Shown piece after piece: positions 20,694-24,373 of a DNA stretch of 36,402 bases (positions within the stretch are counted from its first letter, which is position 1; every line of letters begins with the position of its first letter). The stretch is from Aquabacterium sp. Its GTDB lineage: Bacteria; Pseudomonadota; Gammaproteobacteria; Burkholderiales; Burkholderiaceae_C. Location of the stretch: NCBI RefSeq assembly GCF_004297345.1, contig NZ_SCTN01000293.1:1-36402 (forward strand), read 5' to 3'. Under the pieces are notes generated by a model that saw only the letters and a program-made list of their open reading frames with translations, had not been told where the DNA came from and did not search any database. The position numbers and the translations under genes were made by a program.

Positions 20694-20714
20694 TTGATTC
20701 ACCTTATGAATCAA
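20694..20714. promoter_or_regulatory. Perfect inverted repeat upstream of pckG
   Basis: TTGATTCA and TGAATCAA form an 8-base perfect dyad with a 5-base spacer, about 53 bases before the pckG start codon on its own strand. Its outer TTGAT/ATCAA halves resemble an FNR half-site pair but the spacing is far too wide for FNR. A dimeric repressor or activator of gluconeogenesis is a reasonable guess; no identity can be given. Confidence 0.5.
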
Positions 20715-20915: not shown

Positions 20916-21004
20916 TATTCCGACACCGCTTTGCGGGCGTTTGGCATGGCGGCAGGCACACTGCTCGGCTTGCCCGATTTGCCACATTTTTCACATTGTT
21001 CAAT

Positions 21005-21805
21005 ATGCCCTTGCTGGCCCGCCGCCCGTTTTTGCAACTCAGTCTTGGTAGCACCCTGTGCGCTGCTGCATTGCCTCAAGCCTGGGCGCGCGAGCACCTG
21101 CCCGCGCGCGCGGAGAGCCCGGCCGTCGGCGTGGACCCCTTGCTCGTCGCCTCGGGCCTGACCGCGCGCTGGCAAGCCTCGATGAAGCAGGATCTGGGCT
21201 GGACCGCCCGCTGGACGGCCATGGACACCGATGTGATCCTGACCCAACTGGAGCAAGGCCAGATTGATGCGGGCTTGTTCCTGAGCCACCCACGTGCCGA
21301 TGCGCTGGACAAGCAAGGCCTGATCTACAACCGCAAGACGATTGCACAAACCGATGTGCTGCTGCTGGGCCCCCAGGAAGACCTGGCTGGCATTCGCAGC
21401 GAGACGGACCCAGGGCGCGCCTTGACCCAGGTGCTCGCAGCCGCCAGTGCGGGTGCGGTACGCTGGCAACAACCGCCAGCAGGATCCTCGCTGGCCGCAC
21501 TGGCCGACCAGTTGACGCAAGGCCTGGCCTCCAAAGGCTTGACTGCGACCAGCAAGATACCCGCGGGTCATGCCCCTGCCTACCGGCTCATGAGCCGGGC
21601 ACAATGGCTCAAAACACCGCCACGCGACGAAAAACTCAAAGTCTGGTTGGCCGACAAGCCCGCCTTGACCTTGCAAGCGCAGATTGCCTGCTCGTTCAGA
21701 TCCCGGCATGCCGGCGCCAAGCTGCTTGTGAGCTGGCTGCAGTGGCCCCTGGCGCAAAGCGCCGTCAAAGCCTCGCGCCCCGCCTGGCAACCCGTCAAGG
21801 AGTGA
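21005..21805 (+). CDS. TupA/ModA-like substrate-binding protein, Tat signal
   Basis: A 266-residue periplasmic binding protein of the tungstate/molybdate (TupA-like) type. I choose the ATG at 21005 (MPLLARRPFLQLS), not the upstream TTG. The N-terminus has a twin-arginine ARRPFLQL motif followed by a hydrophobic core ending in QAWA, suggesting Tat export. The core segment resembles TupA: a GLTARWQASM helix, the DTDVILTQLEQGQIDAGLF segment matching TupA's 'dvLLVH' region, and TDVLLLGPQEDLAGI matching 'vlVGPkaDPAGI'. However, the usual N-terminal oxyanion-binding Thr/Ser cluster is not evident and the C-terminal half is divergent. It begins an operon with a permease and an ATPase. The substrate is uncertain. 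Confidence 0.65.
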   Translation: MPLLARRPFLQLSLGSTLCAAALPQAWAREHLPARAESPAVGVDPLLVASGLTARWQASMKQDLGWTARWTAMDTDVILTQLEQGQIDAGLFLSHPRADALDKQGLIYNRKTIAQTDVLLLGPQEDLAGIRSETDPGRALTQVLAAASAGAVRWQQPPAGSSLAALADQLTQGLASKGLTATSKIPAGHAPAYRLMSRAQWLKTPPRDEKLKVWLADKPALTLQAQIACSFRSRHAGAKLLVSWLQWPLAQSAVKASRPAWQPVKE

Positions 21806-21812
21806 AGGCATC

Positions 21813-22544
21813 ATGTCTTCTTTTGAACTGGAAGCGTTGTCCTTGAGCCTGCAAGTGGCGCTGATCACCCTGATGATCTCCACACCCGCAGCCCTGGTGC
21901 TGGCAACCGTGATGGCCCGCACCCGTTGGCGCGGCAAGCTGGTGCTCGACACCCTGATCCTGCTGCCCATGGGCCTGCCGCCAGCGGTGATCGGCTTCGG
22001 CTTGCTGATGAGCCTGGGCGGCGATGGCTCGCTCGGCAGCTGGCTGCATGAGCTGACCGGCTTCAGCCTGAGCTTCTACCCCGGTGGCGCCATCCTGGCC
22101 GCCAGCATCATGACCGTGCCCTTGATGGTCCGGATCCTGCGCCCAGCCCTGGAAGCCACAGACCCCATGCTGCTGCCTGTGGCGCGGACATTGGGCGCAT
22201 CTCAATGGCAAGGCTGGTGGACGATCACCCTGCCACTGGTGTGGCCTGCTGTTGCCTCGGCCATGGCGCTGGGCTTGACGGCGGCCTGGGGCGAATCGGG
22301 CGCCACGCTTGTGCTGGCAGCGGCCCTGCGCCCGCACCATGTGGGCGACACGACCGCGCCCGTGGCCTTGGTACAAGCCTTGCTCAATCAACAAGACGGC
22401 GAAGACGCCGCCTGGCATCTGGCCCTGATCTCGCTGTGCATCGCCATGGCGGCCATCGTGATCAGTGAATGGGGGCGTCAACGCTGGCGCCGTCGCTGGC
22501 AGGCCCGCTTGCGCCCCATCGGCCAGCCCATCCAATCCGCATGA
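21813..22544 (+). CDS. Molybdate/tungstate-type ABC transporter permease (ModB-like)
   Basis: A 243-residue inner-membrane permease with about five or six transmembrane helices, starting LSLSLQVALITLMISTPAALVLATVMA, the classic ModB opening. The cytoplasmic coupling helix that contacts the ATPase is the EAA loop ARTLGASQWQGWWTITLPL (near residues 129-147), and it is intact. AWGESGATLVLAA also matches ModB. It lies eight bases after the binding-protein gene, and its stop overlaps the ATPase ATG (ATGA), so the three genes are one operon. The permease sequence looks normal, unlike its partner ATPase. Confidence 0.87.
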   Translation: MSSFELEALSLSLQVALITLMISTPAALVLATVMARTRWRGKLVLDTLILLPMGLPPAVIGFGLLMSLGGDGSLGSWLHELTGFSLSFYPGGAILAASIMTVPLMVRILRPALEATDPMLLPVARTLGASQWQGWWTITLPLVWPAVASAMALGLTAAWGESGATLVLAAALRPHHVGDTTAPVALVQALLNQQDGEDAAWHLALISLCIAMAAIVISEWGRQRWRRRWQARLRPIGQPIQSA

Positions 22545-23695
22545 TCGATCAAACGCTCCCTCGCCCGCTCAGCATCGAGCTCAAGCTCCAGCAGACAGGT
22601 CTGGATATCCGCGCGCAGTTTCGTGTGCTGCCAGGCCGCGTTTGTGCGCTTGTTGGGCGCAGCGGCGCAGGCAAAAGCGCCCTGCTCAAGGCTGCTGCGG
22701 GCTTGGCGCCTGCGCGAGGCGGTCGCATTGCCGTGGGCAACGAGGCCATGTACGACTCGGCAGCCCGCATCAACAAGCCGCCACATGAACGCCGCCTGAC
22801 CTGGCTGGATGGACACACCCACCTCTTCCCGCACCTCACCGTCCGGGCCAATCTGGAGTACGGTCTCAAAGGCAAGGGCCTGCGCCGCACCAAGCCGCCA
22901 GCGTTCGACAAGGTCGTCAACTGGCTGGACATCGCCTCGCTGCTGGCACGTCGTCCGGAAGCGCTGACCGTCAGCCAGCGCGTCAAGGTGGCCTTGGCAC
23001 GTGCCCTGATCTCCGGGCCCAATGCCTTGCTGCTGGACGACCCGCTGGGCGACGTCCCGGCCCATGAGCAGGAACCCCTCCTGGAGCTGCTGGCCGAGTT
23101 GCCCACGCGCTTTCATGTGCCCATCGTGCTGGTCAGTCCGCGCATGAACGAGGTGATCCGGCTGGCCGATGAAGTCGTGATCCTGCATGAAGGCCGCATG
23201 GCCAGTGCCGGGCCTGCCGCGCAGATCCTGTCTGATGTGTCGCTCTCGACCTTCCTGGAGGGCGTGCATGCTGGCAGCGTGCTGGAGGGCGAGGTCAAGC
23301 GCCACGACATCGAATGGCTGCTGAGCGAAGTTGATGTCTCTGGCCAGCGCGTGACAGTGCCCGCGATGCTGCACGCGGTGGGCAGCAAAGTGCGGCTGAA
23401 AGTTCGCGCCCGCGATATCTCCTTGCACCGGGCCGTGCCCACCGATACGAGTTGCAGCAATCACCTGCGCGGCCGCATCACGCAGATCATGCTGGCGGGC
23501 GAGCATGGCACCTATGGCGCCGTGGGCATCGAACTGGATCGGGCGCTGGATGCCGACAGCCTGCAAATCAAGTCTGGCTCGCCCTTGTGGGCCATGCTCA
23601 CCCGCAAATCGATCCAGCAGATGGGCTGGGCGCCAGGGCAGCCGGTCGTCGTGGGCTTCAAGGCCATGGCGACCACGGTGTCCGCATGGCGTTGA
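22541..23695 (+). CDS. ModC-like ABC ATPase with degenerate catalytic motifs
   Basis: A 384-residue ModC-family ATPase: an ABC domain (1 to about 240) plus a C-terminal Mop/TOBE-like oxyanion-binding region (about 250-384, with two repeats and the end KSIQQMGWAPGQPVVVGFK). Walker A is intact: GRSGAGKS (39-46). Everything else has changed. The Q-loop Gln is Asp90 (LTWLDGHTHLFPH). The signature LSGGQ is LTVSQ (142-146). Walker B LLLDEP is LLLDDP, with Asp167 in place of the catalytic Glu. The D-loop SALD is GDVPA. The H-loop His is Pro200 (VLVSPRMNEV). The reading frame is open throughout with normal codon use and the Mop region is preserved. It is therefore a diverged protein, not a decayed one. 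The start ATG overlaps the permease stop. Confidence 0.85.
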   Translation: MIDQTLPRPLSIELKLQQTGLDIRAQFRVLPGRVCALVGRSGAGKSALLKAAAGLAPARGGRIAVGNEAMYDSAARINKPPHERRLTWLDGHTHLFPHLTVRANLEYGLKGKGLRRTKPPAFDKVVNWLDIASLLARRPEALTVSQRVKVALARALISGPNALLLDDPLGDVPAHEQEPLLELLAELPTRFHVPIVLVSPRMNEVIRLADEVVILHEGRMASAGPAAQILSDVSLSTFLEGVHAGSVLEGEVKRHDIEWLLSEVDVSGQRVTVPAMLHAVGSKVRLKVRARDISLHRAVPTDTSCSNHLRGRITQIMLAGEHGTYGAVGIELDRALDADSLQIKSGSPLWAMLTRKSIQQMGWAPGQPVVVGFKAMATTVSAWR

Positions 23696-23764: not shown

Positions 23765-24373
23765 ATGCCCAGTCTTCTGCCCCGCCAACTGCTCTCGATC
23801 AACGTCGCACAAGCCAGCCCCCTCACCATCGAAGGCCGCAGGATCATGACGGCCATCGGCAAGCGCGCCGTGAGCACGCTGGCCGAGCCTCATCGCATCG
23901 ACGTCAAACCACTGGGTCTGCAGGGTGATGACCAGGCCGACGTGACCGTGCACGGGGGGCTGAGCAAAGCGGTTTACGCCTACCCGCATGAGCACTATGA
24001 TTTCTGGCAGACGGTGCGTGCGCAAGCCAGCGCACAAGCCTGGGGCGAAGCCATGCCGCACGGCATGCTGGGCGAGAACCTGACACTCACCGGCCTGCTG
24101 GAAGGCGATGTGTATGTAGGTGATGTCCTGCAGTTTGCCGACTGCAGCCTGGCGGTCAGTGAGCCACGCCGGCCCTGCTACAAATTCCAGGCCGTGATGG
24201 GATTCAAGCAAGCCGTCAAGATGATGGCGCAGTCTGGTTACTGCGGCTTCTACCTCACGGTCAGGCAAGCCGGCACGATCTCGGCGGGGGAGTCATATGA
24301 ACTCATCCCCGGCCCACGCGAAGTCAGCATCGCCGAGTTGTTCAAAACCAAGATGCACCGCCACATAGATTGA
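23765..24373 (+). CDS. MOSC-domain protein (YiiM-like)
   Basis: A 202-residue protein with the MOSC fold of molybdenum-cofactor sulfurase C-termini. YiiM-type members reduce N-hydroxylated compounds using the molybdenum cofactor. Motifs are GLQGDDQADVTVHGGLSKAVYAYP (the YiiM HGG core), GENLTLTGLLEGDVYVGD, and SEPRRPCYKF, whose Cys is the expected molybdenum ligand. Length is close to YiiM (about 220). It is 69 bases downstream of the Mod-type transporter genes on the same strand, which fits a molybdenum theme, though it may have its own promoter. Assignment to the MOSC family is firm; the substrate is unknown. Confidence 0.9.
   Translation: MPSLLPRQLLSINVAQASPLTIEGRRIMTAIGKRAVSTLAEPHRIDVKPLGLQGDDQADVTVHGGLSKAVYAYPHEHYDFWQTVRAQASAQAWGEAMPHGMLGENLTLTGLLEGDVYVGDVLQFADCSLAVSEPRRPCYKFQAVMGFKQAVKMMAQSGYCGFYLTVRQAGTISAGESYELIPGPREVSIAELFKTKMHRHID

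Follow-up and report, generated by a model that had tools for sequence, protein, structure and literature searches.

Degenerate ATP sites are known from heterodimeric ABC exporters, in which one complete site is left and in which conservation has been read as pointing to a new role (PMC7756269). In molybdate and tungstate transporters the substrates are allosteric regulators and bind to the NBD dimer, as stated in the part of PMC2896483 that cites Gerber et al. 2008. Searches of the open-licence literature found no importer with only dead ATP sites and no bacterial importer analogue of the sulphonylurea receptors or CFTR, and nothing relevant on ABC pseudo-ATPases, modC-MOSC operons, or molybdate transport in Aquabacterium.

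The locus described here lies in a window of 36,402 nucleotides, a contig belonging to a 4.63-Mb Aquabacterium (Burkholderiales) genome bin made up of 626 contigs. The gene order is PEPCK, a TupA-like periplasmic binding protein (20996..21805), a ModB-like permease (21813..22544), a ModC-like ABC ATPase with a dead ATP site, here called pseudo-ModC (22541..23695), a YiiM-type MOSC-domain protein (23765..24373), a GST-like protein, and a 5'-nucleotidase-like protein, the last two being named by translation and family resemblance. The genes from the binding protein to the MOSC protein are on the + strand, and the stop codon of the permease overlaps the start of pseudo-ModC in an ATGA overlap. 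The pseudo-ModC frame is open over 384 amino acids, with the NBD at approximately residues 1-235 and a Mop/TOBE-like C-terminus at 236-384. No partner NBD is encoded within the operon in the window. Upstream of the operon, all Rfam matches to RNA control elements were below threshold and no match to a ModE-like site was found. A palindrome, TTGATTCA-N5-TGAATCAA, is present between PEPCK and the operon (window 20694-20714). As a candidate operator it has partial copies in only 2 of 21 relatives (L045 and L046).

The ATP site of pseudo-ModC

Pseudo-ModC has the domain architecture of ModC, with Pfam matches to ABC_tran (3.6e-22) and TOBE (2.9e-6). It matches the TIGR02142 modC model at E=7e-78 and 262 bits, which is below the 285-bit trusted cut-off for the equivalog. 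The best match in the PDB for its AlphaFold2 model (pLDDT 82.7) is ModC of M. acetivorans (3d31).

In alignment with canonical ModC, the Walker A motif GRSGAGKS (region of residues 36-48, 22646..22684) and the Walker B Asp are retained in the window. The other elements are replaced. The signature is LTVSQ (residues 142-146, 22964..22978) rather than LSGGE. Codons 167-173 (DPLGDVP, 23039..23059) stand in place of the Walker B Glu and the D-loop, with Asp167 at the position of the catalytic Glu and D-V-P where canonical sequences have S-L-D, so that the D-loop Asp has become Pro173. The H-loop His is replaced by Pro200 (23138..23140). A sequence-only reading of this DNA had already listed LTVSQ, the Walker B Asp, the D-loop, Pro200, and the open frame, all of which stand. 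Its assignment of the Q-loop Gln to Asp90 is corrected by the gapless alignment of RRLTWLDGHTHLFPHL with RRLGVVFQDGRLFPHR, in which Gly91 is at the Gln position and Asp90 at that of the preceding Phe (codons 22808..22813).

A pseudo-ModC ortholog is present at the matching locus in 36 of the 42 Aquabacterium genomes, with 56-92% identity and no internal stops. The set of ATP-hydrolysis motifs (Q-loop, LSGGQ, Walker B Glu, D-loop, and H-loop) is absent from all of them. Across the 36 distinct sequences, A, G, or S stands at the Q-loop Gln position; the catalytic Glu position is D in 30, N in five, and Q in one; the D-loop Asp position is P in 33 and otherwise H or A; and the H-loop His position is P in 35 and D in one. 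None has SGG in its signature. The loss of the Gln, the Glu, the D-loop Asp, and the His is therefore shared by all 36, as the sequence-only reading had proposed should be checked. Some of the replacements are themselves nearly invariant (D90 in 36/36, P200 in 35/36, V172 in 35/36, and also R201), as is expected under a new constraint. Since 36 of 42 genomes carry an ortholog without internal stops and all of these lack the motifs, the dead ATP site is not due to chance or to a local error. A sequencing artefact or recent decay is ruled out by the 36 orthologs, their matching replacements, and their intact frames.

The retained part of the site is less constant. The Walker A Lys is replaced by Gln in 8 of 36 orthologs, with two P-loop-less forms, REPATQSA and RVENGQRA, and the Walker B Asp is gone in 4 of 36. 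Therefore nucleotide binding is not conserved across the genus, and the earlier proposal that selection has kept it is not supported. This bears on the idea that pseudo-ModC works in the manner of CFTR, binding ATP without hydrolysis and gating a passive anion pathway. Most orthologs, including that in the window, do have both Walker A and the Walker B Asp, and most orthologous loci keep a full-length permease. However, the losses of the P-loop Lys (8/36) and of the Walker B Asp (4/36), the absence from every ortholog of the LSGGQ that is required for the ATP sandwich, and the lack of a permease pore in four of the carriers make such gating very unlikely.

Origin of the operon and the canonical transporter

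In four genomes of sister genera (G373, G149, G101, and G212) there is a ModB-ModC-MOSC operon in which ModC has fully canonical motifs. These ModC sequences (L110-L113) resemble pseudo-ModC in gene order and in 42-45% identity, and in two of the four genomes the operon likewise adjoins PEPCK. They differ in retaining FQ, LSGGE, DEP, SLD, and TH. In each genome this is the only strong ModC match. In one of the sister operons (L111:3390-7790), ModB-ModC-MOSC is preceded by two binding proteins for the one transporter, a canonical ModA and a TupA-like protein.

Pseudo-ModC has a single origin. In the tree it forms one branch with 100/100 support and a stem of 1.18 changes per site, sister to the canonical ModC of these operons; long branches in this tree were flagged by the tree program. 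Among 401 sampled genomes of the family, no pseudo-type match was found outside Aquabacterium. A single pseudo-ModC branch with a long stem, sister to canonical sequences, suggests that loss of the ATP site was most likely one event that preceded the radiation of the genus. It had been proposed that canonical motifs within the same operon would point to an artefact or to recent decay. Such motifs do exist, and only in other genera; they would date the loss to the Aquabacterium stem and give no sign of an artefact. PEPCK was rejected as a species tree because it evolves too slowly and conflicts with the pseudo-ModC tree, and its tree was used solely to place G013 outside, and G027 and G029 inside, the genus clade.

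The genus also has a second, canonical molybdate transporter. ModA (TIGR01256) is present in 40 of the 42 genomes and in 34 of the 36 that carry pseudo-ModC. Of the carrier genomes, 26 yielded a canonical ModC paralog, whose motifs are intact wherever the gene is complete. In the genome of the window, contig C12 carries canonical modE-modA-modB at its end, with nif-type genes alongside. This contig breaks off within modB, so the absence of a canonical modC is most likely no more than a gap in the assembly. The search for a second modC that the sequence-only reading called for is thus answered for the genus by a canonical modABC, and for this genome by modE-modA-modB with a modC presumed to be off the assembly. 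Loss of the sole molybdate importer is ruled out by the genes on C12, and with a canonical second transporter molybdate uptake need not depend on the operon in the window. Were pseudo-ModC annotated simply as ModC, after its family, one would wrongly expect these genomes to have a second system for molybdate uptake.

Encoded at the contig end itself (L127, G000:C12:1-6139) are nitrogenase-associated proteins (NifN-like, NifX-like, and ferredoxin-like) together with ModE, ModA, a double Mop protein, and the beginning of ModB. Judging from these genes, the organism probably fixes nitrogen and has a molybdenum regulon. Elsewhere in the genus, one species without pseudo-ModC (G020, L096) has a canonical-type ModC with LLLDGPLSALD, in which Gly takes the place of the catalytic Glu. 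Some species (L131, L140, and L141) have, next to ModA and ModB, a short ATPase of the ModC type that lacks a Mop domain, and thus a second kind of modABC.

Shift of constraint and reduction of the operon

The dN/dS values are NG86 values. For the dead NBD the median is 0.073 (range 0.03-0.13, 13 close pairs), which is close to the 0.07 for PEPCK, 0.09 for the permease, and 0.11 for MOSC; the canonical ModC NBD gives 0.05-0.19. The dead NBD is under purifying selection, with a dN/dS not above that of the canonical ModC paralogs. This agrees with the earlier claim that selection keeps a non-hydrolysing subunit, which is very probably so.

The constraint has moved from the engine, the NBD, to the Mop-like domain. 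In the 26 genomes holding both paralogs, mean identity in pseudo-ModC is 62.3% for the NBD and 69.1% for the C-terminus, whereas in canonical ModC it is 70.7% and 56.1%, respectively. Of 325 genome pairs, 304 show a higher identity in the C-terminus than in the NBD of pseudo-ModC, whereas 2 do so for canonical ModC. Although the pairs are not independent of one another, the reversal is consistent. Over positions 207-330, pseudo-ModC has a mean entropy of 0.66, and canonical ModC one of 1.31. Some letters of the C-terminus are invariant and specific to the genus, MLAG..G.YGAV for instance. The Lys of its FKA motif is N, Q, or E in some orthologs and is therefore not strictly conserved, which makes molybdate binding by this domain uncertain.

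The other transporter proteins have changed as well. Where ModA would be expected in the operon there is a TupA homolog, with a profile match to 5my5 at 7.8e-9 and an AlphaFold2 model that matches 3cvg, 5my5, and 3lr1. It has VGVD-like letters for TTTS and RWxxPPxGSA for RGDxSGT. The TTTS and SGT motifs of TupA are presumably oxyanion-binding. A twin-arginine signal (RR-x-F/L/W) is present in nearly all orthologs of this protein (L045-L080), including that in the window, and is unusual for a substrate-binding protein. The ModB-like gene is present, with the best models below their cut-offs. The permease lacks the ModB motif GEFGA-PG-QT (GEFGATITFVSNVPGQTQTLPLAIY in the sister genera), the GEFGA...PGQTQTLPLAIY stretch being altered in the window. 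Its EAA coupling loop is kept, as had been noted from the sequence. In pseudo-ModC the docking region that follows the Q-loop, LFPHL..N..YG, is retained with 84% consensus identity to canonical ModC over positions 92-110.

In four species (G011, G022, G030, and G023) the permease has been reduced to an 80-residue stump, one hydrophobic helix plus the EAA loop, which is fused in frame to pseudo-ModC (L080:5937-7346, L158, L159, and L160). The EAA segment, PMSRPLAHTLGASRWRSWWTLA.QLPAP, is identical in all four save for one residue, and the dN/dS of the stump is 0.14-0.28. The coupling loop has thus outlived the pore. The same four species also lack the P-loop Lys in pseudo-ModC. The fusion may contain an internal start codon.

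These observations bear on whether oxyanion import persists, driven in trans by canonical ModC or by a CysA/PotA-type ATPase while pseudo-ModC acts as a regulatory lid. The EAA loop and the 84% identity of the docking region would fit such import, and canonical ModC and further ModC-like ATPases are encoded in the genus. However, the signature and the Glu/His set are both missing from one and the same pseudo-ModC chain. No pairing with a normal ModC therefore completes an ATP site, and rescue by such a heterodimer is ruled out on motif logic. The earlier suggestion of a subunit that needs a second ATPase is weakened for the same reason. With the permease motif and the ligand motifs of the TupA-like protein gone, and with pseudo-ModC staying on in the four species where the pore is deleted, continued import is quite improbable.

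It is also conceivable that pseudo-ModC is a soluble store or sensor for molybdate or tungstate, acting through its Mop-like domain independently of the membrane and of MOSC. No part of the protein is better conserved than the C-terminal domain, and the account in PMC2896483 that cites Gerber et al. 2008 has substrate acting allosterically at the NBD dimer of known molybdate/tungstate ABC transporters. Against this, the putative Mop-site residues vary. In the stump clade the coupling loop has been kept better than the rest of the permease, which argues for membrane docking. A soluble role is accordingly rather improbable.

Reduction has also taken other routes. The operon has no binding protein in G002, G008, and G004. 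In G020, G027, and G029 only the binding protein and MOSC are left, the permease and the ATPase being gone. Pseudo-ModC is therefore dispensable in some lineages, and a sensor role need not involve MOSC. The MOSC gene is present throughout the assembled loci, whether the operon is complete or reduced, and is its most constant partner. Its product (PF03473, 2.6e-27) has PR.PC.K conserved across 41 sequences, and the invariant Cys of the family is present. In YiiM-type MOSC proteins an invariant reactive Cys lies at the proposed Moco site (PMC5818509).

Such a pattern could arise by slow decay, in which a redundant former transporter sheds its parts singly and leaves a remainder of slight function or none. 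In its favour, the genus has a second, canonical modABC, the binding protein, the permease, and the ATPase have each been lost in different lineages, and the first two have lost motifs too. However, the dN/dS of 0.03-0.13 over the 13 close pairs, the uninterrupted frames of 36 species (56-92% identity), the near-invariance of D90 (36/36), P200 (35/36), and V172 (35/36), and the constraint on the shortened permease remnant all count against decay, which is unlikely.

A proposed non-pumping complex and its relation to known ABC proteins

Taken together, the analysis suggests that an old molybdate pump has been turned into something else. What is conserved is the coupling loop and the Mop-like domain, not the pump or ATP binding, and a docked complex that does not pump is therefore the best explanation. 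The ancestral pump may have been converted to a membrane-docked, non-pumping Mop-domain sensor or scaffold beside the MOSC molybdoenzyme, a reading that is given a probability of about 0.45. Under it, an ancestral modABC-mosc operon would have lost its ATPase activity once, on the Aquabacterium stem, a second canonical modE-modABC would have taken over molybdate import, and the remaining complex would have been kept for a non-pumping role. The EAA coupling loop of the ModB-like membrane protein would be the docking site of pseudo-ModC, whose most constrained part today, the Mop-like domain at the C-terminus, would bind either an oxyanion or a protein partner. The assembly could then serve as a membrane-tethered sensor or scaffold for the MOSC molybdoenzyme, with which it is probably co-transcribed. 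Synteny and conservation are the grounds for the proposed docking and for the putative link to MOSC activity. Among the roles offered by the sequence-only reading, that of a regulator is the best supported.

A more specific version is doubtful. In this, the entire importer would have become a conserved non-pumping complex whose Mop-like domain senses molybdate or cofactor and controls the MOSC molybdoenzyme, with the coupling loop sometimes nearly the sole remnant of the permease.

If the conversion to a non-pumping complex is true, a homomeric importer subunit without any possible working site, under selection as strong as that on its active paralog, would be a natural pseudo-ATPase. The reduction series, from the full operon to the fusion of the stump with the dead ATPase and to the binding protein with MOSC, makes it testable which part of an importer functions without pumping.

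Compared with the ModC of molybdate importers (TIGR02142; M. acetivorans ModBC, 3d31), pseudo-ModC shares homology over its full length, the ABC ATPase with Mop/TOBE, a ModB-like operon partner, and the best structural match. It differs in scoring below the equivalog cut-off, in the genus-wide replacement of the catalytic elements except Walker A and the Walker B Asp, and in the reversed constraint on its domains. Heterodimeric exporters (TAP, CFTR, BmrCD, and TM287/288) likewise show conserved loss of the catalytic Glu and the H-loop in an NBD under selection, and in the sulphonylurea receptors and CFTR the ABC architecture is used, as proposed here, for a non-pumping purpose (PMC7756269). 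The heterodimeric exporters have one complete ATP site per transporter, whereas pseudo-ModC is a single NBD type in an importer-type operon and forms no complete site with a partner NBD. The sulphonylurea receptors and CFTR still bind nucleotide and keep one competent site, whereas pseudo-ModC has no complete site.
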